Notes: a model not told the origin generated them from the letters alone. A stretch of DNA of 33,763 nucleotides from Methanomassiliicoccales archaeon (GCA_028682895.1 JAJRAK010000056.1:1-33763); one strand, 5' to 3'; positions 8,142 to 31,411 are shown, numbered from the stretch's first letter. Made by a program: numbers and translations.

Positions 8142-9062
8142 ATGAAACTATGGGATTTCGGTAGGGTCAAGGACGGAAAGGTAAGGATAGGAGATTCGAT
8201 CCGCCAGCGCTTGGGCCTGGAAGACGGTAGCCAGGTCTATTCCACGCTCTTCAGGTACGAGCAGAACGGTTCCCGCGGGCACGAGATGGTCCTCTCCACC
8301 TTCGGACCGGAGAACTACCGCGAGCTCTGCAACCTGACGTTCCACATGATAGACGCCCCCGGCGCCTGCGCCCAGGCCTCCAAGTTCCTAGCTGACCGCA
8401 ACGTGGACATCCTGAACTCGGTATCGCTCAGCATGACCTGCGGCATTTCCATGATGTGGAAGATGCTGGTGGACCTATCGTACTACGGCGATTCTACCCA
8501 GCTCATCGAGGATTTCAACGCCCTGAGGCGGACCTCGCCTGCGGCGCTATCCAAGGTCGAGGGACTGGAGCTCAGCACCTCGCACATCAGCGACCGCTAT
8601 ACGAAGGGGCTTACGGCACCGCAGTCCAAGATCAAGGTCAAGACCCTGAAGAAGGTCTCTCGCAGCCCGTCGGCCATCAAGGACGACAGCTTCGCCATCC
8701 CCAAGGACTACCTGGACCAGCTCGACTCCGTGAAGGAGGGTACGCCGGTCATGATGGTCGGGGACGTGGACTCTTGGGTGTTGTCCATGTCGTTCCTGCC
8801 CCAGGACTGTAAGCTGGTGGAGATGTCGTTCGAGATACCGGACAGGCCCGGGGCCATATTCAAGGCCACCGAGGCCTTGGCAAATCAGAACGCCAACCTG
8901 CTCGCCGTCCAGTCCCGTGTATTGGTATACGGGCAGAAGATGGTGCTGGACCTGGTAGCGGACCTCAGCCACAGCGAGGACCTGGACAAGGTCGCGGAGA
9001 AGGCCCTGGCCGCTTTGGGCGGGGACTTCAAGCTCCGCAGCAAGGGCCCCGTGTCCTTTTGA
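8142..9062 (+). CDS. Duplicated ACT-domain protein, possible AbrB-like/ACT regulator
   Basis: A 306-residue protein built as a tandem repeat. Each half has a short beta segment resembling an AbrB-type swapped hairpin (residues ~8-38, with KVRIGDSIRQRLGLEDG; and ~183-215, with FAIPKDYLDQL) followed by an ACT domain (about 63-130, LTFHMIDAPGACAQASKFL; and 226-290, MSFEIPDRPGAIFKATEAL). ACT domains bind small ligands, often amino acids. If the hairpins bind DNA, this would be a ligand-responsive regulator; that part is inference. It is the first gene of the biotin-carboxyltransferase operon, and its stop precedes the biotin ligase start by 8 bases. ATG 8142 is preferred over a TTG at 8130, which is in frame but has no better signal. 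Confidence 0.75.
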   Translation: MKLWDFGRVKDGKVRIGDSIRQRLGLEDGSQVYSTLFRYEQNGSRGHEMVLSTFGPENYRELCNLTFHMIDAPGACAQASKFLADRNVDILNSVSLSMTCGISMMWKMLVDLSYYGDSTQLIEDFNALRRTSPAALSKVEGLELSTSHISDRYTKGLTAPQSKIKVKTLKKVSRSPSAIKDDSFAIPKDYLDQLDSVKEGTPVMMVGDVDSWVLSMSFLPQDCKLVEMSFEIPDRPGAIFKATEALANQNANLLAVQSRVLVYGQKMVLDLVADLSHSEDLDKVAEKALAALGGDFKLRSKGPVSF

Positions 9063-9070
9063 GGCCTGAC

Positions 9071-9844
9071 ATGCTCATAGGCCGCAAGGTCCTGGTCAAG
9101 GAGGAGGTCGTGTCCACCAACGATGCGGCCAAGGCCCTGGCCATCGATGGCGAGGTGGAGGGCACCGTCGTCACCGCCTTGCGCCAGACCGGCGGTAAAG
9201 GTCGTACCGGAAGAAGCTGGGAGTCGCCTCCCGGCGGACTTTATCTTTCCATCATATTGCGGCCGGAGCTGAAGGCCCAGGACCTGACGCTCCTGACCGT
9301 GATGTCATGCCTGCCAGTGGCCCAGGCCATCGAAGAAGCGTGCCACGCCGTCCCGCGAATAAAATGGCCGAACGACGTGAAGCTGAACGGCAGGAAGGTG
9401 GCCGGTATACTCGTCGAGGCTTGCTACCGGGGCGGGGAACCGCGCTTCCTTGTTATGGGCATAGGCATCAACCTGAACACCGACCCGTCAGCGCTCACGA
9501 CGCCGGAGGCGGGAAGCCTGAAGGACATGTGCGGCAAGGAGCTGGACCAGGAGCACTTCATGAACGTGCTGCTGTTCAAGCTGGACGATTTCTACGCCAA
9601 GTTCAAGCGCGGCGAGCGCGACCTGGACGAGTACGCCAGGTACTCCGAGTCCATCGGTCAGGACGTAGAGGTGCGTTTAGGGGACCAGAAGGTGAAAGGG
9701 AAGGGGATGCACCTGGAGGAGGACGGCTCCCTGGTCATGAGGTCCGAGGACGGCATGATATATCGCGCCACCTCGGTGCACGACGTCGTACCGTTGGACA
9801 AGGGTCAGGTACGATTCGAAACTGACAACGTTCATAAGCAATGA
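9071..9844 (+). CDS. birA: Biotin--[acetyl-CoA carboxylase] ligase, catalytic-only type
   Basis: Activates biotin to biotinyl-5'-AMP and transfers it to the Lys of a carrier protein, here almost certainly the one encoded three genes downstream. The 257-residue protein starts straight at the catalytic domain (STNDAAKAL), with the biotinyl-AMP loop GKGRTGRSW, the KWPNDV motif, the GILVE strand and GIGINLN. The SH3-like C-terminal domain is at about 205-255. No N-terminal helix-turn-helix is present, so unlike E. coli BirA it cannot itself repress transcription. GAGG lies just before ATG 9071, which is chosen over an in-frame TTG at 9059. The stop overlaps a possible ATG of the next gene as ATGA. 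Confidence 0.93.
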   Translation: MLIGRKVLVKEEVVSTNDAAKALAIDGEVEGTVVTALRQTGGKGRTGRSWESPPGGLYLSIILRPELKAQDLTLLTVMSCLPVAQAIEEACHAVPRIKWPNDVKLNGRKVAGILVEACYRGGEPRFLVMGIGINLNTDPSALTTPEAGSLKDMCGKELDQEHFMNVLLFKLDDFYAKFKRGERDLDEYARYSESIGQDVEVRLGDQKVKGKGMHLEEDGSLVMRSEDGMIYRATSVHDVVPLDKGQVRFETDNVHKQ

Positions 9845-9867
9845 GCACGAATATTGGAGGGGTCAAA

Positions 9868-11415
9868 ATGGGCGAGGACAAGGTCAAGGAACTTCGGGAC
9901 ATGAAGAAGCGGTCGAGGGCCGGCGGCGGAGCGGAACGGGTAGAGGCGCACCGCATGCAGGGCAAGATGACCGCCCGCGAACGTGTGGATGCATTGCTGG
10001 ACCCCGGCTCGTTCACTGAATTTGACACGTTCGTCTCGCATCAGGCCTACCACTTCGGCATGGAGAAGCAGAAGCTTCCCGGGGACGGGGTCGTCACCGG
10101 GAAGGGGACGATCGAGGGAAGGCAGGTGTTCGTCTACGCCCAGGACTTCACCGTCTTCGCCGGTTCCGTCGGCCGCATGCACGCCAAGAAGATATGCAAG
10201 GTCATCGACCTGGCGGTGAAGACCGGCTGCCCGGTCATCGCCTTGTTCGATTCTGGCGGCGCCCGACTGCAGGAAGGGGTCGAGTCCCTGGCAGGTTACG
10301 GCGAGGTCATGCTCCGCCATTCCCTGGCGTCGGGCGTCATACCGCAGATAGCCATGGTCATGGGACCGTGCGCGGGCAGCGGTGCCTACGCGCCGATGCT
10401 CTGCGACTTCGTCTACATGGTCAAGGACAAGTCGTTCATGTTCATGGTCGGGCCGGACGTGATAAAGGCCGTGCAGAACGAGACGGTCAATTTCGAGGAC
10501 CTTGGCGGAGCTAGCGTTCACGCCTCGCACTCGGGCTCCGCCCACTTCGTTGCCCAGGACGACATGGAATGCGTCAAGCACGTCAGGAAGCTGATGTCGT
10601 ACCTGCCGAGCAACAACATGGAGCAGCCCCCGGAGAAGAACACGGGGGACGACCCGGAACGCCGCGACGATTCGCTGGACACCATCATCCCCGAGGACCC
10701 GGCCAAGCCGTACGATATGAAGGACGTCATACGCAAGATAGTGGACAAGGGCGAGTTCCTGGAAGTGCAGGAGCTGTTCGCCAAGAACATCATCATAGGC
10801 TTCGCCCACATGGATGGCGGCCCCGTCGGGATCGTCGCCAACCAGCCGATGGTGCTGGCAGGTACGCTCGATGCCGCATCCTCGATGAAGGCGGCACGCT
10901 TCGTGCGGTTCTGCGATGCCTTCAACATCCCGATCGTGACATTAGTGGACGTACCGGGCTACATGCCCAGCGTGGAGCAGGAGAACTCCTCGCTGCTCAG
11001 GGACGCCACCAAGCTCCTGTACGCGTACGCCGAGGCCAGCACCCCCAAGGTCACGTTGGTCACCAGGAAGGCCATCGGCGGTGCCTATTGCGTGATGGCA
11101 TCGAAGCACCTGCGCTGCGATGTGAACCTGGCCTGGCCGACGGCCGAGATCGCCATCGTCGGGCCGGAGGGCGCCATCAACGTCGTCTTCAAGCAGGAGC
11201 TCATCATGGCCGACGACCCGCAGGAGAAGAGGGACACGCTCATCTCGGAGTACCGCAAGCTGTACGCCTCCGCCTTCTTCTCTGCCGAGCGCGGTTACCT
11301 GGACGATATCATCGAGCCGAGCAACAGCCGCATGAGATTGATAGAAGCGCTGAACATGCTGGACCGCAAGCGCGAGGCCCGGCCGGCGAAGAAGCACGGG
11401 AACATGCCGCTATGA
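9868..11415 (+). CDS. mmdA: Acyl-CoA carboxyltransferase, transcarboxylase 12S / MmdA / PccB type
   Basis: Carboxyltransferase that moves carboxyl between biotin and an acyl-CoA, probably methylmalonyl-CoA/propionyl-CoA. The 515-residue protein has the two crotonase-fold halves of the family. The N-half oxyanion Gly pair is intact in DSGGARLQEGV and the C-half one in GGAY. Two deviations stand out. The usual GGIIRHGAK-type stretch reads SSLLRDATK (from Ser374). The residue that tunes acyl-CoA chain length in actinobacterial PccB/AccB (Asp or Ile after GGAY) is Cys408. ATG 9868 is preceded by GGAGGGG at good spacing, so it is preferred to ATG 9841, which overlaps birA. It sits between the biotin ligase and the 5S-type subunit. 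Which acyl-CoA it uses cannot be settled from sequence. Confidence 0.88.
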   Translation: MGEDKVKELRDMKKRSRAGGGAERVEAHRMQGKMTARERVDALLDPGSFTEFDTFVSHQAYHFGMEKQKLPGDGVVTGKGTIEGRQVFVYAQDFTVFAGSVGRMHAKKICKVIDLAVKTGCPVIALFDSGGARLQEGVESLAGYGEVMLRHSLASGVIPQIAMVMGPCAGSGAYAPMLCDFVYMVKDKSFMFMVGPDVIKAVQNETVNFEDLGGASVHASHSGSAHFVAQDDMECVKHVRKLMSYLPSNNMEQPPEKNTGDDPERRDDSLDTIIPEDPAKPYDMKDVIRKIVDKGEFLEVQELFAKNIIIGFAHMDGGPVGIVANQPMVLAGTLDAASSMKAARFVRFCDAFNIPIVTLVDVPGYMPSVEQENSSLLRDATKLLYAYAEASTPKVTLVTRKAIGGAYCVMASKHLRCDVNLAWPTAEIAIVGPEGAINVVFKQELIMADDPQEKRDTLISEYRKLYASAFFSAERGYLDDIIEPSNSRMRLIEALNMLDRKREARPAKKHGNMPL

Positions 11416-11425
11416 GGTGCCAAGC

Positions 11426-12931
11426 ATGAAGATCAAGATCACCGACACGGTCCTCAGGGACGCCCACCAATCGTTGCTGGCGACCAGGATGAGGACGGAG
11501 GACATGCTTCCGGCGGCCGCTATGCTCGACGAGATCGGCTACTGGTCCGTGGAGATGTGGGGAGGCGCCACCTTCGATACCTGTCTGCGTTACCTGCGCG
11601 AGGACCCCTGGGAGCGGATAAGCAAGCTCAAGAAGGAGATGCCGAACACGCCGTTCCAGATGCTCCTGCGCGGTCAGAACATCGTCGGCTACCGGCATTA
11701 TTCCGATGACATACTGGACAAGTTCATCAAGAACGCCAAGAGGCGCGGCATCGACGTGTTCCGCATCTTCGACGCATTGAACGACCACCGCAACATGCAG
11801 ATGGCCATGCGCAGCGTGAAGAAGTACGGCGGAGTGGTCGAGGCCAGCATATCCTATACCATATCGCCTGTGCATTCCATCGAAGGCTTCGTGAAGTTCG
11901 CCCGCAAACTGCAGGAGATGGGGGCGGACACCATCTGCATCAAGGACATGGCAGGACTGCTGGCGCCCATGGACGCCTACGAACTGGTCAAACAGTTGCG
12001 CGAGGACATCGGGCTCCCGGTGCACGTTCACTGCCACGCCACCTCCGGGATGGTCACGGCCACCTACATGAAGGCGGTGGAGGCCGGAGCGGAGATAATA
12101 GACACGGCCATATCCAGCATGTCATTGGCCACATCACAGCCGCCGACCGAGGCCATCGTGGCCATGCTGCGTGGCACGGAGTACGACAGCGGGCTGGACC
12201 TGAAGAAGTTGTCCGAGATAGCCGAGTACTTCAAGACGGTCCGTGAAAAATATCATGCCTTCGAGAGCGGGTTCAGCGGCATCGACACCAACGTCCTGGT
12301 CTACCAGATCCCGGGCGGCATGATCAGCAACCTGATCTCCCAATTGCGGGAGGCGAAGAAGGAGGACCGCCTGGCCGACGTGTACGACGAGGTACCGCGG
12401 GTAAAGGCGGACCTTGGTCACGTTCCATTGGTCACGCCCACCTCGCAGATAGTCGGCACGCAGGCCGTGCTCAACGTCATCACCGGTGAAAGGTACAAGA
12501 TGGTGACGAACGAGACCAAGAACCTGGTGCGAGGCCTGTACGGGAAGACGCCGAGGGAGATCGACCCGGCCATCAGGCGCAAGATCATCGGCGACGAAAA
12601 ACCGATAACCGTTAGGCCGGCCGACCTGCTGGAGCCGGAGTTCGAAAAGCTCTGCAAGCAGATAGAGGAGTACGCCTGCAAGGAGCACATGGCATGCTCG
12701 GAGGAGGACGTCCTCTCTTACGCGCTGTTCCCACAGGTGGCGCTGGACTACTTCAAGCACCGCCAGATGATGGAGAAGGGAGTCAACCTGAAGGACCTGG
12801 CCGCGGTGGCGGTCTTGTATATGCGCTCCACGGAGAAGCACGCGGCCAGCAAGGCGCCGACCACGGGGCTGGACGGCTGGAAGTACGCTGCCCGCAGAGA
12901 GGCCGTCGGGAACGGGGGGTGGCCGCTCTGA
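11426..12931 (+). CDS. pycB: Biotin-dependent carboxyltransferase, transcarboxylase 5S / PycB / OadA type
   Basis: Transfers carboxyl between carboxybiotin and pyruvate/oxaloacetate. The 501-residue protein is an HMGL-like TIM barrel with metal and catalytic elements DTVLRDAHQS (Asp12), FDALND, the Lys173 of CIKDMAG that is carbamylated in this family, and HVHCHATSGM (residues 200-209). A PycB/OadA C-terminal conserved domain follows to about residue 470. It ends without a biotinyl domain, unlike methanogen PycB or full OadA, so it needs the separate carrier encoded next. A GAGG lies ahead of ATG 11426; GTG 11417 is an alternative start. SQPPTEA near residue 235 resembles the pyruvate carboxylase branch. 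With the 12S-type neighbour it completes a transcarboxylase core. Confidence 0.9.
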   Translation: MKIKITDTVLRDAHQSLLATRMRTEDMLPAAAMLDEIGYWSVEMWGGATFDTCLRYLREDPWERISKLKKEMPNTPFQMLLRGQNIVGYRHYSDDILDKFIKNAKRRGIDVFRIFDALNDHRNMQMAMRSVKKYGGVVEASISYTISPVHSIEGFVKFARKLQEMGADTICIKDMAGLLAPMDAYELVKQLREDIGLPVHVHCHATSGMVTATYMKAVEAGAEIIDTAISSMSLATSQPPTEAIVAMLRGTEYDSGLDLKKLSEIAEYFKTVREKYHAFESGFSGIDTNVLVYQIPGGMISNLISQLREAKKEDRLADVYDEVPRVKADLGHVPLVTPTSQIVGTQAVLNVITGERYKMVTNETKNLVRGLYGKTPREIDPAIRRKIIGDEKPITVRPADLLEPEFEKLCKQIEEYACKEHMACSEEDVLSYALFPQVALDYFKHRQMMEKGVNLKDLAAVAVLYMRSTEKHAASKAPTTGLDGWKYAARREAVGNGGWPL

Positions 12932-13428
12932 AGCTGCGCATCATCGTCAACGGTCAGGAATATGAAGTGAACGTGGAGAAGAACGCCGGCGATTATCGTG
13001 TCGACATCGACGACAACATCTTCAAGTGCATCGTGAAGGAGGACAAGGTCGTGGTGAACGGTGAGGCGACGTCCGTCGTCATCGAGGGCGACCTGGAGGT
13101 CGGGGCCAAGGTCACCTCCGAGGACCGCACCATGGACCTGAAGCTGCAGCAGGTGCGCGAGATAGAGCGCATCGAGGTGGATACGGAGGAGGGCGGGAAG
13201 ACCGATGGCCCGTCCGGTTCCGTCCTGGCGCCGATGCCCGGCAAGATCATGTCCGTCAAGGTCAAGGTCGGCGACACCGTCAACGCCAACCAGGTGGTCG
13301 TCGTCCTGGAGGCGATGAAGATGGAGAACGAGGTCCAGACCGAGGTGGCCGGCAAGGTCAAAGAGGTCAAGGTGCGGCCGGGCGAGACGGTCGAGGGCGG
13401 ACAGTCCCTGCTCGTGGTGGAACCTTAG
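12919..13428 (+). CDS. Biotin carboxyl carrier protein (1.3S-like)
   Basis: A small biotin carrier of about 169 residues. The C-terminal 75 residues form the biotinyl domain with the motif EAMKMENEV; the biotinylated Lys is residue 134 counted from the GTG. The N-terminal ~80 residues hold a beta-rich segment like that found before the biotinyl domain in PccA or OadA, then a short acidic/Gly linker. The start is uncertain: GTG 12919 follows a G-rich stretch and overlaps the 5S gene by 13 bases, and CTG 12928 would be an unusual alternative. It would shuttle carboxyl between the two carboxyltransferases upstream. The stop shares bases with the stop of the convergent M16 peptidase gene. Confidence 0.88.
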   Translation: MAALKLRIIVNGQEYEVNVEKNAGDYRVDIDDNIFKCIVKEDKVVVNGEATSVVIEGDLEVGAKVTSEDRTMDLKLQQVREIERIEVDTEEGGKTDGPSGSVLAPMPGKIMSVKVKVGDTVNANQVVVVLEAMKMENEVQTEVAGKVKEVKVRPGETVEGGQSLLVVEP

Positions 13429-16757: not shown

Positions 16758-16787
16758 TCTTGACCTGTCGAAGAGGGATGACGCAAA

Positions 16788-16795
16788 TTTATATC
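16788..16795 (+). promoter_or_regulatory. TATA box of the acsBDC operon
   Basis: TTTATATC with A-rich sequence upstream is centred about 28 bases before TTG 16819. This places the transcription start at the TTG itself and argues that acsB uses a leaderless TTG start. Confidence 0.65.
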
Positions 16796-16818
16796 GGCGC
16801 TAACCCGTTGGGTCCCTG

Positions 16819-19800
16819 TTGGAACCGGAGAGCATTTTCTTGCCCGAAGACCTCGCGATACTGGGACACTTGAAGACCGGCGATGCCCTGCAAAAGATAA
16901 GGGAGAAGCGGCAACGCTACCTCGCGTCCCTGCAGGCCGCCCAGGGGAGCGATGACGAGAGGCGGATCATCGCCTCCGTCACCGACATCCTGCGCGCCGA
17001 CGACCTGTGGAAGGTGGACCTGGGCAGATGCCTGGACCTGATAGACAGGGACCTGGCCAGGGCGGCCGGGGTCGGTCCGATGTCGTTGAAGGAGAGGAAG
17101 GTGTGGGAGAGCATCGGACTGCTCGCACCCCTGGAGAGCGTCCCGAATGGCGGGGCCTATGATGTCCTGCTCTGTCTGAGAGAATCACTCTCATGCACCA
17201 TGCTGGCCTGGTGTCGTGACGTTCTGGAGGAACGCCGGGGCGTGGAGGCGCCCGAAGGGCTCGTACTTGGACTTCGCGAGGGAATGGTCCGGGGACTGGT
17301 CCTGGAGGACGATGGCGGTAGGGCGGCCCTTAGGGACGTGGAAGGCAAGGTCGTGATGGAAGGAGGACGCTCCTCCATGTGGCTGACGTTCGAGACGCTG
17401 CGGCGCGAACTGGCCAAGGACCTGGCCGTAGGACAAGGGCAGCTGCCTTTGGGATGCAGGACCACCGATGTCTCGATGGCCTTCGCCAGGGCCATGTCTG
17501 GATGTCCGGTGCTCTATACCGGTCCTGGGCTGGACGCGATCCTGAGCGAGTTCATGCACAGCACCTGCCGCGATCTGTTCGGTGGCTCGCTGATGGACAG
17601 TCAGGAGGACATGGCCAGAGAGATGGAGAGAAGGAGATGGATGAGCGGCCTCCCCCACCGTTACGGTCCGCCCCCGCCCGCGCAGGCGAGCAACGCCCAG
17701 GTCATCGCCCGGGGGTTCCTGGGGGCGGAGATCGCCCTGGCCCTGGCCCATGTGGCACTTCTATCGCTCATCAAGCGCAGGGGCGACGTTCCCGTGGAAT
17801 ATCCGGAGACGGCGTACGCCTTGCCCTGCATATTAGGTTGGGACGGAGCGGAGGTGACCAAGGCGAGCGAGCTGCTGGAGATCGTGGTCAAGTATTCCGC
17901 CCTACCGTCGGAAAGAGGGTTGGGAGACGCCCTGGCCGCCGGACGATCGGCACTAGTGGCCGCGGAAGCGTTGGAAGCGCTCCGCTATCTGGATGGGGAC
18001 CCGCACGCCGGTTCCGTCTGCGTCGGCTTCATCCCGGACAAGGTGCTGCGCGAGCTCGGCCTCGCTCTCGTCGACGACACCATCCCCGGGGCGGCGGTGC
18101 TCATGGGAATGCCCCATGACCGGAAGCAGCTGGTATCTACCGTAAGAGAGCTGCAGGCGCGCGGGATGCTCATCATGGCCGCGGACGAGGTGGTGCGGGT
18201 GCTGCAGGAGAACGAGGTGCAGATGGGGCTAGGCATGATGCTCTACCCGCTTGGCAACTTCACACAGTTGGTCCACGCCCTGGACTTCGTCACCCGCGCC
18301 GCGCTCTCGTTCGGCGGTGTGGAGAAGGGAGATACAGAGCGATTGTCGGCCTATCTGGCCAAGAGACCGAAGGCGTTCGTGCTCCATTACGGACCGTTGG
18401 ACGGTTGCCGGGCGGCCATGGCATTGGCCGCGCTCGGGCATCATGTCCCGATAGTCACGGACCAGCTGGTGGAGGGAGTACCGGACCTTCTGTTCCACAA
18501 GGAGCCGCAGGACATGCTCCAGGGGGGATTGGAATCCAGGGACATACGAACGGTCGTGACCGTGGTCGACATCCCCGTTCCCTTCGGACCTGCGTTCGAA
18601 GGTGAGACCGTACGGCGCCCCGATACCCATATGGAGGCCGGGGGCGGACGGACGCCTTCCTTCGAACTGTTGCGGATGAGGGACGAGGACCAAGTGCGGG
18701 ACGGCGTCATAACGGTCATCGGTCCGGACGTGGACCATATGGCCGAGGGATCGCAATCGCCCATGGCCATATTGGTGGACGTGTTCGGGAAGCGCATGCA
18801 GGAGGACTTCGAGTCCGTTATGGAACGGCGCATCCATCTTTACCTGAACTTTGCCGAAGGACTGTGGCACACCGGACAGAGGAACATGAACTGGGTACGT
18901 CTTAGCAAGAAGGCGTTCAAGGCCGGGTTCCGCCTGGAGCATGTCGGGCGCATACTGATCACCAAGCTCAAGGAGGAGTTTGGTAACATCGTATCGCGTG
19001 TGCAGGTCACCATCGTCACCGATGAGACGGAATTGCGGTCGCACATTCCAGAGGCGTTGAGAGCGTATCAGTCCAGAGAGGAGCGAATGGCCGGCCTTAC
19101 CGATGAGAGCGTGGACACCTTCTACTCGTGCCTGATGTGCCAGTCGTTCGCTCCCGATCACGTGTGCATCGTCACCCCGGAGCGCATGGGACTGTGCGGG
19201 GCCATAAACTGGCTGGATGCCAAGACCGGCAAGGAGATCGTCCCGTCCGGACCGAACCAACCGATAGCGAAGGGCGAGTGCGAGGACCCTGTGAAAGGTT
19301 CCTGGAAAGGGGTCAACGAGGCGGTGCAGGCGCTCACCCGGGGCAAGCTGTCACGCTTCTGCGCCTACAGCCTGATGGAGGACCCGATGACATCCTGCGG
19401 CTGTTTCGAATGCATAGTGGCCATGAGCCCTGACATGCAATCGGTCATCGTCGTCAACCGCGAGTTCCCGGACATGACCCCGGTGGGGATGAAGTTCTCC
19501 ACGCTGGCGGGGAGCATCGGCGGCGGAAAGCAGACGCCCGGGTTCATCGGCGTCGGACGGCGCTACCTGGTCAGCAAGAAGTTCATCAGCGGGGACGGCG
19601 GGCTTCCCCGCATTGCCTGGATGCCCTCGATGCTCAAGGAAGCGCTGAGGGAAGAGCTTATTAATAGAGCAAAGGAATTGGGAATGCCAGACTTCCTGGA
19701 CAAGGTGGCGGACGAGACCGTCGTCACCGACGCGGAAGGACTGATGGAGTGGATGATCAAGGTGGACCACCCTGCCTTGAGAATGCCCTCGTTGCTTTGA
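16819..19800 (+). CDS. acsB: Acetyl-CoA synthase (CODH/ACS beta subunit), bacterial-type, with ~270-residue N-terminal extension
   Basis: Makes acetyl-CoA from CO, CoA and a methyl group delivered by the corrinoid iron-sulfur protein. From about residue 295 it follows the Moorella AcsB fold over its full length, including the A1 domain that archaeal CdhC lacks. The A-cluster ligands are all present: Cys771, Cys774, Cys783 and Cys793 for the [4Fe-4S] cube, and Cys860-Gly861-Cys862 for the distal nickel. These are exactly 265 above the Moorella numbers (506, 509, 518, 528, 595-597) as I recall them. The 993-residue length exceeds the usual ~730 because of an N-terminal region that I do not recognise: mainly helical to about 135, then mixed, with a Pro-rich linker near 280-290. 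Starts at TTG, supported by a TATA box 28 bases ahead. Heads an operon with acsD and acsC. Confidence 0.95.
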   Translation: MEPESIFLPEDLAILGHLKTGDALQKIREKRQRYLASLQAAQGSDDERRIIASVTDILRADDLWKVDLGRCLDLIDRDLARAAGVGPMSLKERKVWESIGLLAPLESVPNGGAYDVLLCLRESLSCTMLAWCRDVLEERRGVEAPEGLVLGLREGMVRGLVLEDDGGRAALRDVEGKVVMEGGRSSMWLTFETLRRELAKDLAVGQGQLPLGCRTTDVSMAFARAMSGCPVLYTGPGLDAILSEFMHSTCRDLFGGSLMDSQEDMAREMERRRWMSGLPHRYGPPPPAQASNAQVIARGFLGAEIALALAHVALLSLIKRRGDVPVEYPETAYALPCILGWDGAEVTKASELLEIVVKYSALPSERGLGDALAAGRSALVAAEALEALRYLDGDPHAGSVCVGFIPDKVLRELGLALVDDTIPGAAVLMGMPHDRKQLVSTVRELQARGMLIMAADEVVRVLQENEVQMGLGMMLYPLGNFTQLVHALDFVTRAALSFGGVEKGDTERLSAYLAKRPKAFVLHYGPLDGCRAAMALAALGHHVPIVTDQLVEGVPDLLFHKEPQDMLQGGLESRDIRTVVTVVDIPVPFGPAFEGETVRRPDTHMEAGGGRTPSFELLRMRDEDQVRDGVITVIGPDVDHMAEGSQSPMAILVDVFGKRMQEDFESVMERRIHLYLNFAEGLWHTGQRNMNWVRLSKKAFKAGFRLEHVGRILITKLKEEFGNIVSRVQVTIVTDETELRSHIPEALRAYQSREERMAGLTDESVDTFYSCLMCQSFAPDHVCIVTPERMGLCGAINWLDAKTGKEIVPSGPNQPIAKGECEDPVKGSWKGVNEAVQALTRGKLSRFCAYSLMEDPMTSCGCFECIVAMSPDMQSVIVVNREFPDMTPVGMKFSTLAGSIGGGKQTPGFIGVGRRYLVSKKFISGDGGLPRIAWMPSMLKEALREELINRAKELGMPDFLDKVADETVVTDAEGLMEWMIKVDHPALRMPSLL

Positions 19801-19811
19801 GGTGTTCGCAT

Positions 19812-20762
19812 ATGGCAGAGGTACCGGTGCCTAAGGAGAAGTGGACAGGTTCGATCGGCGAGATGGAGCTGGGATGCACTGAGGCCGGAGGAGGTTCTCG
19901 GGCGACCGTCACGGTCGGCGGCAACAAAGGGCTGCCCTTCCTCTCTTTCGAGGACGGTCCCCGCCGCAAGATCGCCCTGGCCGGTTCCGTCTCGGACTCG
20001 CTGGAGGACGTGCCCCAGGCGATACGCGCCGTTTTCGGGGAAGATGTGAACGACGCCGTGAGCTGGGCCAAGGCCTGGAAGGCCAAAGGCGCTGACATGA
20101 TATGCCTGCACCTGACGTCCACCAACCCCGAGGAGCGGAACGCCTCAACGGAGAGCGCCGCTGACACCGTGGCCGCGGTCATGAAGGCCGTGGACCTTCC
20201 GTTGATCGTCTACGGCAGCGGGCATGAGGAGAAGGACGCCAAGGTGATGGAGAAGGTCGGCGAGAGGGCCAAGGGCGAGCGCCTGCTCCTGGGAAAGGCG
20301 GAGGAGGGCGGATACAAGTCCGTGGCCGCCGCGGGCATGGCCAACGGTCATGCCGTCATCGGATTTTCGAACTTGGACATAAACCTGGCCAAGCAGATCG
20401 TGATACTTCTCACGGATTACGGGGTGGGCAAGAAGGACGTGGTCATCGACCCGCTCATGGCCGCCCTGGGCATGGGGCTGGAATATTCCTATTCCGTCAA
20501 CGAGCGCATACGGATAGCGGCGCTGGCCGGCGATGCCATGCTGCAAGTGCCGATGATATGCGATTGCACCCCGGCCTGGAAGGCGCGCGAGGTGACGGAC
20601 GAGGTCCCGAACGCCGGCGAGACCGCCGAGCGGGCGATATGGTGGGAGGGGACGACCGCCCTGGCGGCGTTGCTCTCCGGTGCGGACATCTTGGTGCTGG
20701 GACATCCGGACGCCATGACGCTGGCGCGGAAGGCCATCTCGGGACTGGGGGGTGAGGACTGA
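19812..20762 (+). CDS. acsD: Corrinoid iron-sulfur protein small subunit (CdhD/AcsD)
   Basis: Small subunit of the corrinoid iron-sulfur protein, which carries the methyl group between the methyltransferase and acetyl-CoA synthase. The 316-residue protein is a TIM barrel. Visible family features include the N-terminal KWTGSIGEMELG, DMICLHLTSTNPEE and the C-terminal half that helps bind cobalamin at the subunit interface (VVIDPLMAALGMGLEYSYS). ATG 19812 follows a GAGGTG sequence 6-7 bases upstream, 11 bases after the acsB stop. The stop shares one base with the acsC start, consistent with equimolar production of the two subunits. Confidence 0.93.
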   Translation: MAEVPVPKEKWTGSIGEMELGCTEAGGGSRATVTVGGNKGLPFLSFEDGPRRKIALAGSVSDSLEDVPQAIRAVFGEDVNDAVSWAKAWKAKGADMICLHLTSTNPEERNASTESAADTVAAVMKAVDLPLIVYGSGHEEKDAKVMEKVGERAKGERLLLGKAEEGGYKSVAAAGMANGHAVIGFSNLDINLAKQIVILLTDYGVGKKDVVIDPLMAALGMGLEYSYSVNERIRIAALAGDAMLQVPMICDCTPAWKAREVTDEVPNAGETAERAIWWEGTTALAALLSGADILVLGHPDAMTLARKAISGLGGED

Positions 20763-22090
20763 TGCCCACGGCCATCGAGATATTCAAGCACCTTCCGAAG
20801 AAGAACTGCGGCGAGTGCAAGAACCCGACCTGCCTGGCGTTCGCCATGCAGCTGGCCAACAACAAGGCGAAGCTGGACGACTGCCCGTACCTGAGCGATG
20901 CCGGACGGAACGCACTGGCCAGCTCGTCCGCTCCGCCGATACGCCTGGTGCGCGTCGGCTCCGGGAAGAACGTGGTGGACATGGGAGATGAGACGGAACT
21001 GTACCGTCACGACAAGCGCTTCTTCCATCCGACCGCCCTCGCCCTTCGCGTGAACGATATGATGAGCGCCGATGAGCTGGGTAAGAAGCTCGGCCACGCC
21101 CGTTCGCTGCGCTTCGAGCGCGTCGGCCAGGTGCTGAAGCTCGATATGATCGAGGCGGAATGCCGCTCCGGCGACGCTACCAAGTTCGCGTCCTTCGTCC
21201 AGAGCGTTGCTTCTATGACAGACTGGCCCCTGGTATTGCGCTGCAAGGATGCCTCCATCATGAATGCCGCAGTGGCGGTCGTCAAGGACCGCCGGCCCCT
21301 GCTGCACGGTGCCGATGAGAGCAACGTGAAGGAGATGGCCGCCGTGGCCAAGGGCGCCTCCTGCCCGCTGGTGCTATGCTCGGCCGACCTGGGCAGGTTG
21401 GCCGACCTGGTCGAGATGGCACGCAAGGAAGGGGTGGAGGACCTGGTGCTCGATCCCATGCCGGCGACGATGAAGGAATCGCTGGAAAGGTGCACCGTCA
21501 TCAGGCGCAGCGCCATACGCAAGACGTTCCGCGGACTTGGGTTCCCGATCTACCTCAGCACCCCTGCCACGCAGGAAGGCACGCTGATGGCCTTGACCGC
21601 GGTCATGAAGTACGGCAGCCTGCTCTCTTTTGACGAACTGCCCTCGGCCCAGGCGCTGCCGCTGATGGTGCTGAGGCAGAACATCTACACCGACCCGCAG
21701 GTGCCGATACAGGTCAAGGCGGACCTGTACCCGGTCAACAACCCCGGTCCCGACGCACCCATATTGTTCACCACCAACTTCTCCCTGACCTACTTCACCG
21801 TGCTCTCGGACATCGAGAAGAGCAAGGTGCCGGTGTGGCTGCAGGTCATCGATACTGAGGGGTTATCGGTGCTGACGTCGTATTCCGCCGGCAAGCTGAC
21901 CGCCGAAGCGGTGCAGAAGGCGCTGCTGGCCAGCAATGCCAAGGAGAGAACGACCAAGGGCGTTCTGATCATCCCGGGGATGGTGGCGAGGATGAGCGTG
22001 AAGCTGAACGAGGCCACCGGACTGAAGATCGTTGTCGGTCCCAAGGAATCGTCCGGCATCCCCAAGTTCCTGAGATCGATGAACGGATGA
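20762..22090 (+). CDS. acsC: Corrinoid iron-sulfur protein large subunit (CdhE/AcsC)
   Basis: Large subunit of the methyl-carrying corrinoid iron-sulfur protein. The 442-residue protein starts with the [4Fe-4S] domain: Cys16, Cys19, Cys24 and Cys41 in the spacing CX2CX4CX16C. This low-potential cluster passes electrons to cobalt during reductive activation. A TIM barrel (about 95-320) follows, with the cobalamin-binding Rossmann domain at the C-terminus (about 325-440, including LSVLTSYSAGKLTAEAV). It begins in a TGATG overlap with acsD and ends in an ATGA overlap with the FN3 protein gene. Its cobalt would be methylated by AcsE at 30635 and reactivated by the RACo at 27795, both in this window. 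Confidence 0.94.
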   Translation: MPTAIEIFKHLPKKNCGECKNPTCLAFAMQLANNKAKLDDCPYLSDAGRNALASSSAPPIRLVRVGSGKNVVDMGDETELYRHDKRFFHPTALALRVNDMMSADELGKKLGHARSLRFERVGQVLKLDMIEAECRSGDATKFASFVQSVASMTDWPLVLRCKDASIMNAAVAVVKDRRPLLHGADESNVKEMAAVAKGASCPLVLCSADLGRLADLVEMARKEGVEDLVLDPMPATMKESLERCTVIRRSAIRKTFRGLGFPIYLSTPATQEGTLMALTAVMKYGSLLSFDELPSAQALPLMVLRQNIYTDPQVPIQVKADLYPVNNPGPDAPILFTTNFSLTYFTVLSDIEKSKVPVWLQVIDTEGLSVLTSYSAGKLTAEAVQKALLASNAKERTTKGVLIIPGMVARMSVKLNEATGLKIVVGPKESSGIPKFLRSMNG

Positions 22091-22590
22091 TGCCACGGTC
22101 GCTATCGTTCACAAAACATATAGTCTGCCATGCCGCATTCCCTCTCGTGCTCAGAGCGGTGGCGGGGACCTTCATAGCGATATTGTTCCTTTCGATGATG
22201 GCGCCAGCGGCCGTGGCCGATGTCGCCGGTGCCCCCATGGACTTTTCGGCCGAACGGGACGGCTCCCGCATCTTCCTATCCTGGGGGCCGCCGGAGAATG
22301 TCACTGTTCTCCTTTATAACGTCTACAGGGGCACGGACCGGGGCAACATGACGCTCTATGATACGGTGGACGCCAACTTCACCGCCGGCTACGATACCGA
22401 GGTCGTCACCGGCTGGACCTACTATTACGCGGTCAGCGCCAACACCACCGATGGGGAAGGTACGCTCAGCGAGGTGGCAGAGGTGCCGCCTGCGTCCACG
22501 GACAGTTCTGCGCTCATAATGACCGTCATACTGACAGCGGTCGTCGTCACCCTGCTCTTCGCCTACTGGAAGGGAAGAGGCTCGGGATGA
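22087..22590 (+). CDS. Secreted, membrane-anchored fibronectin type III domain protein
   Basis: A 167-residue protein with an N-terminal hydrophobic helix (about residues 18-42, ending in APAAVADVAG, a possible signal-peptide cleavage site), one FN3-like domain (about 47-130; ISWGPP-type strand B, YNVYRGT and YYYAVSANTTDGEG), and a C-terminal transmembrane helix near 142-160. The domain should face outside the cell. Its start overlaps the acsC stop as ATGA, so it is translated from the acs operon, yet no link between an external FN3 domain and acetyl-CoA synthesis is known to me. Its last 44 bases overlap the 3' end of cooC on the other strand. Two start codons (22087, 22090) lie in tandem. 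Confidence 0.82.
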   Translation: MMPRSLSFTKHIVCHAAFPLVLRAVAGTFIAILFLSMMAPAAVADVAGAPMDFSAERDGSRIFLSWGPPENVTVLLYNVYRGTDRGNMTLYDTVDANFTAGYDTEVVTGWTYYYAVSANTTDGEGTLSEVAEVPPASTDSSALIMTVILTAVVVTLLFAYWKGRGSG

Positions 22591-23305
22591 TGTCGTCGAG
22601 CTCATTCGCCAAAGGCTCGTCGCCTTTCAGCGGCGTGCCGGAGAAGGAAGCTTTTCGTACGATGTCGTCATCGTGAAGTAAGTGGAAGGGCAGGCCGGAC
22701 GTTTCGGCCAAGGCCGATGCCCTGTCCTCGTCCCCGGGCCTGACGCCGTTGATGAGCAGCAGCTTCCGCCCGACCTTGAGGTCCAGCTCATCAGCGAGGT
22801 CGGAGAGCCTTACCGCTGTGCCTACGCCCACCTGGGTCGGGTCCGATACAAGCACCAGGAGGTCCATGCTCTTGGACGTCCTTCGGGAAAGGTGCTCCAT
22901 CCCCGCCTCGTTGTCGATGACCACGTGATCGTACGAATCCATGAGCTGGTCGACGAAGACGCGCAGCAGGTTGTTGACGTAGCAATAGCAGCCGGGGCCC
23001 TCGGGCCGCCCCATTGTCAGAAGGTCGAACGTGTCACCTTCGGCCAGTATCTGCTTCAATTTGATCTTCAGGTATTCCTGCTTGCTCATGTCCCGCGGCA
23101 GCTGCCCCTGCTTGCTGAGAAGACCCTCGCGTACCCCGCCTATGGTGCCAGGCACGTCCGTCCCCAATTTCTGTCCAAGGTTGCTGTTGGGGTCGGCGTC
23201 CACCGCCAACATCGTGCCCTTGTGAGAAAGGGATCGGACCAGAAGGGCGGAGACGGTGCTCTTGCCCACGCCGCCTTTTCCCGCCACCGCGATCAGAAAG
23301 GTCAT
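22547..23305 (-). CDS. cooC: CooC/AcsF-type nickel-insertion ATPase
   Basis: MinD-like P-loop ATPase that loads nickel into carbon monoxide dehydrogenase or acetyl-CoA synthase. The 252-residue protein has the deviant Walker A GKGGVGKS (residues 9-16), DADPNSNLG (switch I region), the CXC nickel motif at Cys106 and Cys108 (GPGCYCYVNN), and VIDNEAGMEH (Walker B region), all diagnostic for CooC/AcsF. The frame runs far upstream, but ATG 23305 is used because the P-loop follows at once and it overlaps the stop of the MetE-like gene as ATGA. Its 3' end overlaps the FN3 gene by 44 bases, tail to tail. AcsB is the only nickel enzyme in the window, making it the obvious client; a CODH elsewhere is another. 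Confidence 0.93.
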   Translation of the reverse strand: MTFLIAVAGKGGVGKSTVSALLVRSLSHKGTMLAVDADPNSNLGQKLGTDVPGTIGGVREGLLSKQGQLPRDMSKQEYLKIKLKQILAEGDTFDLLTMGRPEGPGCYCYVNNLLRVFVDQLMDSYDHVVIDNEAGMEHLSRRTSKSMDLLVLVSDPTQVGVGTAVRLSDLADELDLKVGRKLLLINGVRPGDEDRASALAETSGLPFHLLHDDDIVRKASFSGTPLKGDEPLANELDDIIPSLFPSSRRRAG

Positions 23306-24342
23306 ACCATATCGCCCAGGCCGTAACGCTGCCGGACGGCCTCCACCGTGCCGTTGAGCAGCTGGAGCACACGTTCCGCCTTGCCCTCGTCCAATCCGCC
23401 CAGCCCGCACTGCGGTGTGATGAGCGAACGTTCCAAAAGAAGGTCCACGTTGATGCCTTTCCTGGCCAGCATGTCGATGTAGCTCTCGAAGCGCTGCAGC
23501 AACGATCCTACGGATTCCTTGGCTATCTGGTCCTCCATGTTCGGTATGAGGCCCCAGGCGATGGACCCTCCCCGCTCTAAAAACGCCGTGACCTCGTTGG
23601 GGAACAGAGCAACTGTATGCGCGTAATTGTAAGCGTCGAAGCTGAGCATGTCTATGGATGTGGAAAGTACCAGCGGCCAATCGGTGTTGCCGCAGCAGTG
23701 CAGCCCTTTTATGGCCTCCACACCGTCCAGCACCTCGTCCACCCATTCCACCACCTGGCGCTGCGACACGGAGGCGAAGGGCGTCCCGATGAGCGTCAGG
23801 GACGGCTCGTCCAGGAACATCATCGGACGGTCGGAGACCTCCCTCAGCCTCTTGGCCTGCCACCTGGCCTGCATGTTGAGGTTCCGCCGTATGATCTCGC
23901 CGTACGCCTCGTCATAGATGGCCGGCTTCCCGTTCTGGTCCAGTACCTGCAGGCCGGTGCTGACCGGACCGGTGACCTGCCCCTTTACTGCCTTCAGCTT
24001 CCTGCCCTTGAACTGGTCCAACATGGCGTAGAGACCGTGGAAGCTGTTCTTGTCATGGGCGAAATGCTCCACGTCATCGGACACCACAGCGGTGTAGAAC
24101 TCCTCAGGATCGTAATCGTTCAGATCGACCGTTATCTTCTTCCTGTGAACGTCGACCTTGACGCCTGGCAACCTGGTGCAGTACTGGGCGTACATGTTCT
24201 CCTGGAACCCCAATGCGGGCAGCTGCGGCCAATAGGGCACCTCACGCATGCTGGACATCATTAGATGGACCGCTTTGTCCGGGTCTATGTGCGGGAACGA
24301 CCCAATTCCGGTGGCGGCGCAGTTCCAGGCCATAACTACCAT
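23302..24342 (-). CDS. Core MetE-like cobalamin-independent methionine synthase family protein
   Basis: Zinc-dependent methyltransferase of the MetE C-terminal domain/UroD superfamily. The 346-residue TIM barrel begins with TGIGSFPH and carries probable zinc ligands His215 and Cys217 (LHCCGNTD) and Cys312 (ITPQCGLGG, like the VNPDCGL of MetE). It lacks the N-terminal half of true MetE. Such short proteins in anaerobes take methyl groups from a corrinoid protein instead of folate (family knowledge: core MetE/Mes families). Translational coupling to cooC and the nearby acsCD genes suggest methyl-CFeSP as donor and homocysteine as acceptor, which is inference. A second ATG at 24333 has a TATA-like TTTATCT about 25 bases upstream and may be the real start. 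Confidence 0.82.
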   Translation of the reverse strand: MVVMAWNCAATGIGSFPHIDPDKAVHLMMSSMREVPYWPQLPALGFQENMYAQYCTRLPGVKVDVHRKKITVDLNDYDPEEFYTAVVSDDVEHFAHDKNSFHGLYAMLDQFKGRKLKAVKGQVTGPVSTGLQVLDQNGKPAIYDEAYGEIIRRNLNMQARWQAKRLREVSDRPMMFLDEPSLTLIGTPFASVSQRQVVEWVDEVLDGVEAIKGLHCCGNTDWPLVLSTSIDMLSFDAYNYAHTVALFPNEVTAFLERGGSIAWGLIPNMEDQIAKESVGSLLQRFESYIDMLARKGINVDLLLERSLITPQCGLGGLDEGKAERVLQLLNGTVEAVRQRYGLGDMV

Positions 24343-25890: not shown

Positions 25891-27795
25891 TCACTTCAGC
25901 GATGGGGACCGCCCCAGGTCGGTGTGCGGCAGGAACGAGGCCGAGGAGAAGCGGTCGAAGAAGCGTTGGTCCGTGGACAGCTCCACATATGTCATGGAAC
26001 GATGTACCTTCATGGCCTCGTCCCTCTTCGACTCGGACAGTAGGCACTGCCTCGCCCCTTCCAACGAACCGTTGCCGATGAACGTGAACCTCTCCCGCGG
26101 CAGATCGGGGAGCAGCCCGATGGCCACGGCATTGTCCAGGTCGATGTGGTGACCGAAGCCTCCGGCTATGAAGACCCGGTCCACGTCCTCGTACGTCATG
26201 TCCGCCGTGTCCAGCAGCACCTCGGCCGCGGCGAAGAGCGCCGCCTTGGTGCGAATGATGTTGGTGATGTCCGTCTCGGTGACGGTTATGTCCCTCTGCC
26301 GCTCCACCTTGTCCATGGGGCAGCAGGTCATGCCAGTGGCCCGCAGGTCGTATCCATCCTTCTCGGCGTCCTTCGAGTACACTAGGACGTACTCGCGCCC
26401 TCCCTCCCCGTCGCGTACGCGGTCCAAGGCCTGCAGATGGCCTTTCTTGTCCAGGACGCCGGTGAGGAACAGCTGGGCCAGCAGGTCGATCAGTCCGGAG
26501 CCGCATATGCCCTTCGGCCGTACGTTACCGATGGTCTGGTATTCCACACCGTTGCGGAGCGAAACCTTCTCGATGGCGCCGTCCCCGGCGCGCATGCCAT
26601 GACGTACTTCGCCGCCCTCGAAGGCCGGTCCGGCCGAGGCGGAGCAGGCCAATAGCCAGTCCTTGTTGCCCAGCACCACCTCGCCGTTCGTGCCGACATC
26701 TATCAGAAGGCTGGTCCCTTCCCTTTTGGCGAGTCCGCTGGCGACGATGTCGGCCACCACGTCCCCGCCCACCCAGCTGGCCCTCCCTGGCACGAGATAG
26801 ACGGGTGCTCTGGGATTGACCTTGAGGCCGACCGCCCTGGCGGCGGTCAGCGGCGGCAGGTTGGTGACGGCGATGTACGGGCTGTAACGGATGCGCGTGG
26901 GGTCCAGTCCCAGGAACATGTGCGCCATGACCGTGTTGCAGCCGATGCTGACGGCGGATATCTCACATGCGCATATCCTGCGCGGCTTCGCCATACAATC
27001 GTCGCCGAGGACGGATACCCTGGCTAGCATGTGATTGATCGTATCGACTATGAGATGCGTCAGCCCGCTCAGGCCGTGGTCCTCAGCGTGCATTATCCTT
27101 GAGAGTACGTCCTCCCCGTGCATCAGCTGCTTGTTGTAATCGGAAACATGTGCGACCGTCTCACCCGTTCTAAGGTCGACGATCTCCATCGCCACAGTGG
27201 TAGTGCCTATATCGATGGCGGCACCGTAGCAATGCGAGGAGTCTCCCGGACGGATGTCGATGATACGCCTGTCCGCGAGGAGGACCATCACGTCGTCCCT
27301 CTTCTCCTTGATCATCGTGGACAGCTTGCGCAATACCGGTAACGGGCATTCTAGTTCGCCCGGTTCGAACCCGAGCTGCTTCACCAACCGTTCCAGGTCC
27401 CCGTCGTTATCCTGCAAGGACGGTGCCCTCAGTAAGACGTTCTTGGCCTGGACCAGGGGAGACAGGCCCCTTATCGTCTCGTTGACCTTTCCCCCGACTA
27501 TCTGCATCGGCTGCAACTGGCTCTCCGCAGGGACGAAAACGGTGCAGTCAGCGGTCGTCACCTTGGAATGACATGCCAGACGATATCCTGTGTCCCATTC
27601 CTCCTTGGTGACCTTGTCCGTTCGAACGGAATCCACCGGCCCCTCCACCACCACACGGCACCGGCCGCAGACGCCTCGTCCGGCGCAGGCGCTGTTCACC
27701 TCCACGCCGGCCAATATGGCCGCCTCCAGGAGGTTGGTACCTTCCGGAACGTCGACAGCGCGTCCTTTGGGGTGGAAAATTACCTGGGGGCACAT
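25891..27795 (-). CDS. acsV: Reductive activator of corrinoid protein (RACo/AcsV type, 2Fe-2S + ASKHA ATPase)
   Basis: ATP-driven activator that reduces accidental Co(II) in corrinoid proteins back to Co(I). The 634-residue protein starts with a [2Fe-2S] ferredoxin domain (Cys37, Cys43, Cys46, Cys75). A linker and middle domain follow, then a large DUF4445/ASKHA ATPase part from about residue 195 (AIDIGTTTVAMEI phosphate-1 loop; IDVGTNGEVVLG phosphate-2 loop; VFIAGGFGHHIDL adenosine loop). N-terminal 2Fe-2S architecture matches RACo of acetogens, not methanogen RamA, which has C-terminal 4Fe-4S clusters. ATG 27795 has a TATA-like element 27 bases ahead. With acsCD in the same window, the corrinoid iron-sulfur protein is the likely target; the UroD-type methyltransferase partner could be another. 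Confidence 0.92.
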   Translation of the reverse strand: MCPQVIFHPKGRAVDVPEGTNLLEAAILAGVEVNSACAGRGVCGRCRVVVEGPVDSVRTDKVTKEEWDTGYRLACHSKVTTADCTVFVPAESQLQPMQIVGGKVNETIRGLSPLVQAKNVLLRAPSLQDNDGDLERLVKQLGFEPGELECPLPVLRKLSTMIKEKRDDVMVLLADRRIIDIRPGDSSHCYGAAIDIGTTTVAMEIVDLRTGETVAHVSDYNKQLMHGEDVLSRIMHAEDHGLSGLTHLIVDTINHMLARVSVLGDDCMAKPRRICACEISAVSIGCNTVMAHMFLGLDPTRIRYSPYIAVTNLPPLTAARAVGLKVNPRAPVYLVPGRASWVGGDVVADIVASGLAKREGTSLLIDVGTNGEVVLGNKDWLLACSASAGPAFEGGEVRHGMRAGDGAIEKVSLRNGVEYQTIGNVRPKGICGSGLIDLLAQLFLTGVLDKKGHLQALDRVRDGEGGREYVLVYSKDAEKDGYDLRATGMTCCPMDKVERQRDITVTETDITNIIRTKAALFAAAEVLLDTADMTYEDVDRVFIAGGFGHHIDLDNAVAIGLLPDLPRERFTFIGNGSLEGARQCLLSESKRDEAMKVHRSMTYVELSTDQRFFDRFSSASFLPHTDLGRSPSLK

Positions 27796-30554: not shown

Positions 30555-30634
30555 TTCAACGATGACGATTGTGAATCACGGCCATCGAGGAAAAGTACAT
30601 CTAGCACTGGTCCATGATATTCCGAGGCGTGCCA

Positions 30635-31411
30635 ATGCTAGTCATCAGCGAGAGGATAAACGGCCTGTTCGTGCAAGTGGGGAAAGCTATAGATGACAGG
30701 GACCCCAGGTTCATCCAGGAACATGCGTTAAAGCAGGTCGCCTGCGGCGCTCACGCCCTTGATATCAACGTCGGACCTGGCCGGGATGACGGGCCGGCGG
30801 CGATGGAATGGCTGGTGAATACTGTGCAAGAGGTGACGAGCGTGCCGCTGTGCATAGACTCGCCGGGCATCAAGACCATGACCGCCGGCGTGAAGGCCTG
30901 CCGCAACAAGGTGATCATCAACTCCACCACGGCGGAGATGAAGAAGATGCAGGCGATCTTTCCCTTGGCCAAGGAGCATGACGCTGACATCATCTGCCTG
31001 ACCATGGACGAGCGCGGCATCCCCAACGATGCGGAGTCGCGCGCCGAGATGGCCATGCTGATGATGACCACGGCCATGGAGCATGACATAATGCCTGACA
31101 GATTGTTCCTGGACCCGCTGGTCATGCCCATAAAGGCCGCCCAGGACCAGGCTATGAAGGTCATAAGGGCGATGCACCTGTTCCAGACGCTCAACGACCC
31201 GGCGCCGCGCACCGTCGTCGGCCTATCGAACGTTTCTAACGGCGCCAAAGAGCGCAGCATCATCAACCGTACGTACCTGGGAATGCTCATGGGCGCCGGG
31301 CTCGGCGCGGCCATCGTCGACGTGCAGGACGAGCTGTTGATGGAAGCGATCAAGGCCGGTGAGCTGCTCCGGGCGGAGAAGCTGTACTGTGACGACTTCC
31401 TAAGAGCCTGA
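30635..31411 (+). CDS. acsE: Methyltetrahydrofolate:corrinoid iron-sulfur protein methyltransferase (MeTr)
   Basis: Transfers the methyl group from 5-methyl-tetrahydrofolate to Co(I) of the corrinoid iron-sulfur protein, joining the methyl branch to acetyl-CoA synthase. The 258-residue pterin-binding TIM barrel aligns along its whole length with Moorella AcsE. The pterin-site residues Asp75, Asn96, Asp160 and catalytic Asn199 (GLSNVS) fall at the same numbers. This separates it from MtrH (methanopterin) and from methyltransferases of methanol or methylamine systems. ATG 30635 is chosen because it has GAGG seven bases upstream and gives MLVISERING, matching the family N-terminus; ATG 30614 would add seven residues. 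Its end overlaps the convergent zinc-ribbon gene by 12 bases. It is about 8.5 kb from acsC rather than in the acs operon. Confidence 0.95.
   Translation: MLVISERINGLFVQVGKAIDDRDPRFIQEHALKQVACGAHALDINVGPGRDDGPAAMEWLVNTVQEVTSVPLCIDSPGIKTMTAGVKACRNKVIINSTTAEMKKMQAIFPLAKEHDADIICLTMDERGIPNDAESRAEMAMLMMTTAMEHDIMPDRLFLDPLVMPIKAAQDQAMKVIRAMHLFQTLNDPAPRTVVGLSNVSNGAKERSIINRTYLGMLMGAGLGAAIVDVQDELLMEAIKAGELLRAEKLYCDDFLRA

Follow-up and report, generated by a model that had tools for sequence, protein, structure and literature searches.

A putative remnant of a fused CODH at the N-terminus of acetyl-CoA synthase in a Methanomassiliicoccales archaeon

CODH and acetyl-CoA synthase (ACS) are usually treated as an inseparable complex in which CO is channelled between the two. 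In the classical complexes, as established for Moorella, CODH sits next to domain A1 of ACS. The closest described systems are AcsB of Moorella thermoacetica (1oao_C; NF040764) for the synthase, the Ni-CODHs AcsA/CooS (TIGR01702; CODH-II) for the dehydrogenase, and the incomplete Wood-Ljungdahl pathway of Dehalococcoides mccartyi (PMC6113397; MesB, PMC7857596) for the set of genes. According to PMC6113397 (citing Zhuang 2014), D. mccartyi has no CODH, and CO accumulates from acetyl-CoA cleavage. 'Fused' Ni-CODHs have been classified by Inoue 2019 (PMC6344411), in the supplement of that paper; no description of a CODH-ACS fusion in Methanomassiliicoccales, or of its erosion, was found in the searchable literature, and a prior mention elsewhere is possible.

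The window analysed here is the whole stretch of 33,763 nucleotides from a Methanomassiliicoccales archaeon (genome G000). Its ACS resembles Moorella AcsB in having complete A1-A2-A3 domains and all A-cluster ligands, whereas ~290 residues of a putative pseudo-CODH lie ahead of them in the chain and no CODH partner was found in the genome. The C-terminal half of this extension matches the C-terminal Rossmann fold and the terminal region of Ni-CODHs; unlike them, the extension has neither D-, B- and C-cluster ligands nor a middle domain, and the window protein gives no match to TIGR01702. The single-chain CODH-ACS of other Methanomassiliicoccales (G001 and G126) shares with the window the gene order, the junction and an orthologous ACS, but its CODH half is complete and ligand-intact where that of the window protein is eroded. 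With D. mccartyi, the window shares ACS, CFeSP, AcsE, a MesB-like protein and the lack of a CODH; in contrast, its host is an archaeal methanogen (the genome encodes McrA), its ACS carries the pseudo-CODH, and CO release or cleavage is a prediction from gene content. The best explanation, to which we assign a probability of about 0.8, is that the enzyme descends from a single-chain CODH-ACS, the extension being what erosion has left of the N-terminal half, and that the ACS is now CODH-independent.

The ACS frame, its core and its start

The features of the gene are as follows.

16785..16796, + strand: TATA-box-like AAATTTATATCG, ~25 nt upstream of the TTG start
16819..19800, + strand: ACS gene with N-terminal putative pseudo-CODH extension, 993 aa
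16876..17268, + strand: N-terminal helical half of the extension, residues 20-150
17296..17673, + strand: C-terminal half of the extension, residues 160-285, very probably a degenerate CODH C-terminal Rossmann domain
17656..17712, + strand: linker HRYGPPPPAQASNAQ..., junction of the CODH remnant and ACS
17713..18561, + strand: ACS A1 domain, residues 299-581 (Pfam CODH_A_N at 323-391; 1oao_C alignment)
18562..19797, + strand: ACS A2-A3 domains with all A-cluster ligands (PF03598, PF19436)

The frame at 16819-19800 (+) is open throughout its 993 codons. The encoded protein scores 894.5 bits against NF040764 over residues 302-992 (curated cut-off 800), and its ACS core aligns with Moorella ACS (1oao_C) from residue ~299 (E 2e-220), close to residue 295, where the original prediction had let A1 begin. 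The offset between the two proteins is constant at 265 (query 702-804 corresponding to 1oao_C 437-539), exactly as had been read from the A-cluster: Moorella Cys506, 509, 518, 528, 595 and 597 each have a window counterpart at +265, and the ligand set C771, C774, C783, C793, C860, G861 and C862 is complete. Judged from its sequence, the stretch of residues 299-993 is a complete bacterial-type ACS with predicted activity.

Two related loci deviate in their ACS. The congener G139 (L065/L113) reads Phe at the equivalent of Cys509 (window 774), which would disable the cubane ligand unless it is a sequencing error. In G015 (L073), the parts of the ACS gene lie in several frames and are interrupted by in-frame stops, apparently because of a pseudogene or an assembly problem.

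The extension was found in frame with ACS and free of stops in all eight testable congener genomes, at 43-47% identity; the ninth congener (G138) was left out of this count because its ACS gene is truncated at a contig end. Conservation in related genomes, which had been set as a check, is therefore borne out, as is the description of an extra domain of ~270 residues, mainly helical and then mixed, in frame before a complete bacterial-type ACS. The TTG at the beginning of the ORF might be taken as the sign of a mis-called start, or the ORF as two genes joined by an error of sequencing or assembly. Since the same in-frame architecture recurs in eight other assemblies, the upstream TATA box is conserved and the extension is under purifying selection, we regard such an artefact as scarcely conceivable, in agreement with the original prediction.

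The TATA-box-like element stands at the same place in most congeners, so that a start near 16819 is plausible. Of the leaderless TTG backed by a TATA box that had been proposed, the TATA box thus holds, whereas the TTG as the actual start is plausible only, the homology among the extensions beginning at ~residue 16-22. Most congeners also have a GATGG motif ~16 nt past the TATA-box centre, usually out of the ACS frame, and the window has GTTGG at this position (16800-16812). The motif may be a promoter/initiator element or a short upstream reading frame.

CODH ancestry of the extension

Residues 1-294 match no family in Pfam or NCBIfam, and CODH was not found when the PDB was searched with a sequence profile of the extension. 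When profiles were compared by hhalign, the extension (ACS columns removed) matched the fused CODH profile over its C-terminal ~100 positions with P 8e-11, and residues ~192-285 matched a deeper CODH profile with P 9e-12 and a score of 93.8, the maximum among 20 column-shuffled control profiles being 22.9. The alignment between the extension and CODH profiles ends at a common ERRRW motif. With the AF2 model of the extension (pLDDT 82, pTM 0.81) as the Foldseek query, CODHs fill essentially all of the top 50 places in the PDB, mostly at rmsd 2.2-2.8 Å over ~110 residues and with a best TMq of 0.50 to 6t7j_D; the E-values are only ~1e-3, and the rmsd is large for alignments reaching beyond the C-terminal domain. 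A full-length AF2 model (six sequences) has a pLDDT of 50 and gives no usable domain placement. We conclude that residues 160-285 very probably derive from a fused CODH.

On this point the original prediction was mistaken. It had stated that the extension matches no CODH/ACS subunit, while the C-terminal half seems to be a degenerate Ni-CODH domain from a CODH-ACS fusion, and a Foldseek search and a profile-profile comparison, of the kind recommended for recognising it, pointed to CODHs. The idea of a new domain unrelated to CODH/ACS subunits draws on the missing Pfam and NCBIfam matches and on the missing PDB sequence-profile match, but for residues 160-285 it is contradicted by profile-profile, structural, intermediate-sequence and synteny evidence, and we consider it highly improbable.

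The genus alignment of the extension contains no CxxC-type Cys cluster as a B- or D-cluster motif, and one Cys column only is common to the genus. None of the C-cluster ligands His261, Cys295, 333, 446, 476 and 526 is present in the window extension, the respective regions being deleted or substituted, and the window's frame holds no complete CODH ahead of ACS, only the ~270-residue remnant. From these residues, the extension is almost certainly a non-catalytic, dead CODH. A RanBP-type zinc finger in residues 222-263 (E 0.5) was dismissed as a chance match.

The junction between the CODH remnant and ACS is collinear with the junction of the fused proteins. The linker noted by the original prediction is seen there, with low pLDDT from residue 289; its Pro-rich character is not strictly conserved, and its PHRY is invariant within the genus.

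In the alignment of the eight genus sequences, the extension has >50 invariant positions. The dN/dS values (NG86, four closest congener pairs) are 0.18-0.29 for the extension, 0.08-0.12 for A1 and 0.06-0.11 for A2-A3, implying together with the invariant positions that the remnant is constrained, though less than ACS; in reading these ratios, it should be considered that stops are barred anyway, ACS being downstream in the same chain. Alternatively, the extension could be a neutral dying remnant, functionless and heading for complete loss. Its dN is several times that of A2-A3, and the extension is wholly lost in the relatives G136, G130 and G134 and in family f5, as this alternative would have it. 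However, the dN/dS below neutrality, the invariant residues and the good predicted fold all argue for retention, so that we hold neutrality to be rather unlikely.

Intact fusions, eroded intermediates and the ACS tree

Of the 147 genomes of the order, 74 contain ACS, and in several relatives the ACS frame is ~1,370 aa long. One frame each in G001 and G126 matches both TIGR01702 (703 and 670 bits; cut-off 478) and NF040764 (965 and 950 bits). The CODH half of G001 aligns with Carboxydothermus hydrogenoformans CODH-II with E 8e-210, and CODH-II is the closest PDB relative of the fused CODH halves (E 1e-209 or better). The D-, B- and C-cluster ligands are complete in all seven fused proteins audited. 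Frames of the same length (~1,370 residues), identified by frame length alone, also occur in families f8 and f20 of the class, suggesting that the fusion is probably older than the order.

Intact single-chain CODH-ACS of ~1,370 aa was observed in several Methanomassiliicoccales families (loci L049, L051, L054, L042, L047, L052 and L053).

Eroded forms were found as well. In genus g3 of the same family, G127 and G129 have a full-length CODH half in which nearly all D- and B-cluster Cys are lost and the C-cluster His and the Cys295 region are also gone (the G129 contig stops short of ACS). The third member, G128, is stripped of ligands in the same way and has no middle domain either, both ends being kept; Cys446, 476 and 526 are retained in all three. 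Other extensions of ~300 residues, with a weaker yet significant CODH signal, are carried by family f4 (G008; P 2.5e-7 and 1e-5) and by genus g26 of family f6 (P 1e-5 to 8e-5). Related loci were not found by a scan with a single extension sequence, and an alignment-based scan matched six named contigs. G011 has a frame of 973 aa, which was not accepted as extended, since its first ATG falls at residue 259 and it shows no CODH signal.

The N-terminal half of the extension is helical in the AF2 model (residues 20-39, 45-58, 68-83, 90-98 and 111-137), and residues 20-150 are probably what is left of the helical domain at the N-terminus of a CODH. One may suppose instead that only residues ~160-285 are CODH-derived, and that an unrelated helical domain has replaced the lost CODH parts. 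Indeed, residues 1-150 give no significant hhalign match to CODH with the fused, pseudo or deep profiles (P 0.07-0.5), and this half has a genus-specific conserved motif of its own (DLWxxDLG...RDLAKxAGxEP...RErRxWE). However, CODH too starts with a helical domain at this position, the stretch of G008 matching the N-terminal half is collinear with CODH (P 4e-5 to 1e-5), and G128 exemplifies the loss of the middle domain between two kept ends. We find the replacement unlikely, and a derivation of the whole extension from the fused CODH likely.

The neighbouring genes of the window are listed below.

19749..20762, + strand: CdhD, corrinoid Fe-S protein subunit (NCBIfam CdhD, 325 bits; conserved order)
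20762..22090, + strand: CdhE, corrinoid Fe-S protein subunit (NCBIfam PRK04165, 530 bits)
22547..23320, - strand: CooC/AcsF-like putative Ni-insertion ATPase, so named from its CbiA/ParA-type NTPase character and its conserved position
23302..24342, - strand: MesB-like core methionine synthase candidate (weak NCBIfam methionine synthase match, E 1.6e-5)
25891..27795, - strand: AcsV/RACo corrinoid reductive activator (NF040756, 549 bits, under the cut-off of 800; RACo domains)
30614..31411, + strand: AcsE-like methyl-THF:CFeSP methyltransferase (PRK07535, 286 bits, above cut-off; Moorella-type MeTr 2e7f, E 5e-76)

The CdhD frame begins before the ACS gene has ended. Intact fusions and eroded genes share the order of insulinase-like gene, ACS with or without its CODH half, CdhD and CdhE, and the CooC-like, MesB-like and AcsV genes beyond CdhE are also in order as far as the stretches reach. 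Therefore, the extension occupies exactly the place of the CODH half.

In the ACS tree, every extension-bearing lineage falls into one clade (100/97). The window's genus (g1) is sister to the extension-less G130/G136, and the g3 pseudo-CODHs are nested among intact fusions, so that a single decay event common to g1 and g3 is disfavoured; the tree is a gene tree, rooted only by divergent f6 members, and a few of its long branches are uncertain. Read parsimoniously, these sequences would go back to a single ancestral fusion whose CODH half was eroded several times independently and, in other lineages, lost altogether.

An ACS with no detectable CODH partner

A stand-alone CooS above the family cut-off was found in all nine other genomes of the genus and not in G000, and CdhA above cut-off in no genome of the order. 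Many genomes, G000 among them, give weak TIGR01702 matches that were not accepted as CODH; the one in G000 resembles a hybrid-cluster-type protein of 431 aa. Between metG and the RLI/ABCE1 ATPase gene, G143 has cooS and a cooC-like ATPase gene (L142). In G000, the metG and RLI/ABCE1 genes are neighbours on one contig, only 144 bp apart (L147, G000:C50:90800-91600), implying that the loss of cooS-cooC is real at that locus. The window's organism has apparently lost every working CODH, as in Dehalococcoides-like organisms, although the absence is not absolute, since the assembly is 91% complete and a CODH that has moved to another place might have escaped notice. The original suggestion of a different CODH partner thus finds no support in this organism, with no CODH detectable and the G143-type cooS-cooC locus empty. 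In G136 (L043), a single contig of 99% completeness, ACS lacks the extension and nothing scores above cut-off for CODH, suggesting that members of this group can live with an ACS and no CODH.

It is conceivable that the extension serves as a docking module that recruits stand-alone CooS as the CO source of ACS, in view of the CooS kept throughout the rest of the genus and of the natural contact between CODH and A1, established for Moorella. However, G000 keeps the extension with cooS-cooC gone from the G143-type locus, and in G126 and G135, where CODH is fused to ACS, a separate CooS is likewise encoded, with no such module. If CooS has indeed been lost in this species, the pseudo-CODH cannot depend on it there. 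Docking therefore seems improbable to us.

Returning to an eroded half of an ancestral fusion as the preferred reading, we propose that the ancestral protein would have been a single chain of ~1,370 residues in which a complete Ni-CODH preceded ACS. Its CODH half would have shrunk to ~270 residues in the window's genus by loss of the Cys-rich N-terminus and of most of the catalytic middle, with every metal ligand lost and the C-terminal Rossmann remnant left. The resulting pseudo-CODH domain would no longer make CO, and might have been kept beside A1 as a module that aids folding or oligomerisation or covers a surface; we regard this structural role as possible, with the odds slightly against it. 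The ACS would swap methyl groups between CFeSP and acetyl-CoA, as has been proposed for Dehalococcoides, with CO released by acetyl-CoA cleavage or with external CO used, and the methyl groups would be fed to methyl-THF/methionine. By analogy, and from gene content only, we are mildly inclined to expect such methyl/acetyl exchange without CODH in this species. Methanomassiliicoccales have been reported with MesB only (PMC7857596). More tentatively, the CODH half of an ancient fusion may have become, independently in several archaeal lineages, a non-catalytic domain retained by selection for a new task, namely to stabilise or oligomerise a CODH-free ACS or to gate CO there.

If this is true, methanogens would have a class of pseudoenzyme-ACS that exchanges CO openly or cleaves acetyl-CoA. 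The order offers a graded natural series that runs from the intact fusion through a full-length but dead CODH, a CODH without its middle domain and a vestige of ~270 residues to an ACS with no CODH half. With this series, it becomes testable how an ACS lives without a CO source, which parts of CODH are structurally needed by ACS, and whether some methanogens run ACS for methyl/methionine supply instead of carbon fixation. The single-chain CODH-ACS would itself be of use in structural work and in biotechnology.

Two further observations were made in the window. Beside the ACS locus, at 9059-13428, the ORF translations show biotin ligase, carboxyltransferase, PycB-like and biotin-carrier genes, whose sequences suggest a biotin-dependent carboxylase tied to acetyl-CoA/pyruvate anaplerosis. 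Near AcsE, at 32362-33483, lies a gene resembling those of URO-D/MtaA-type corrinoid:CoM methyltransferases.
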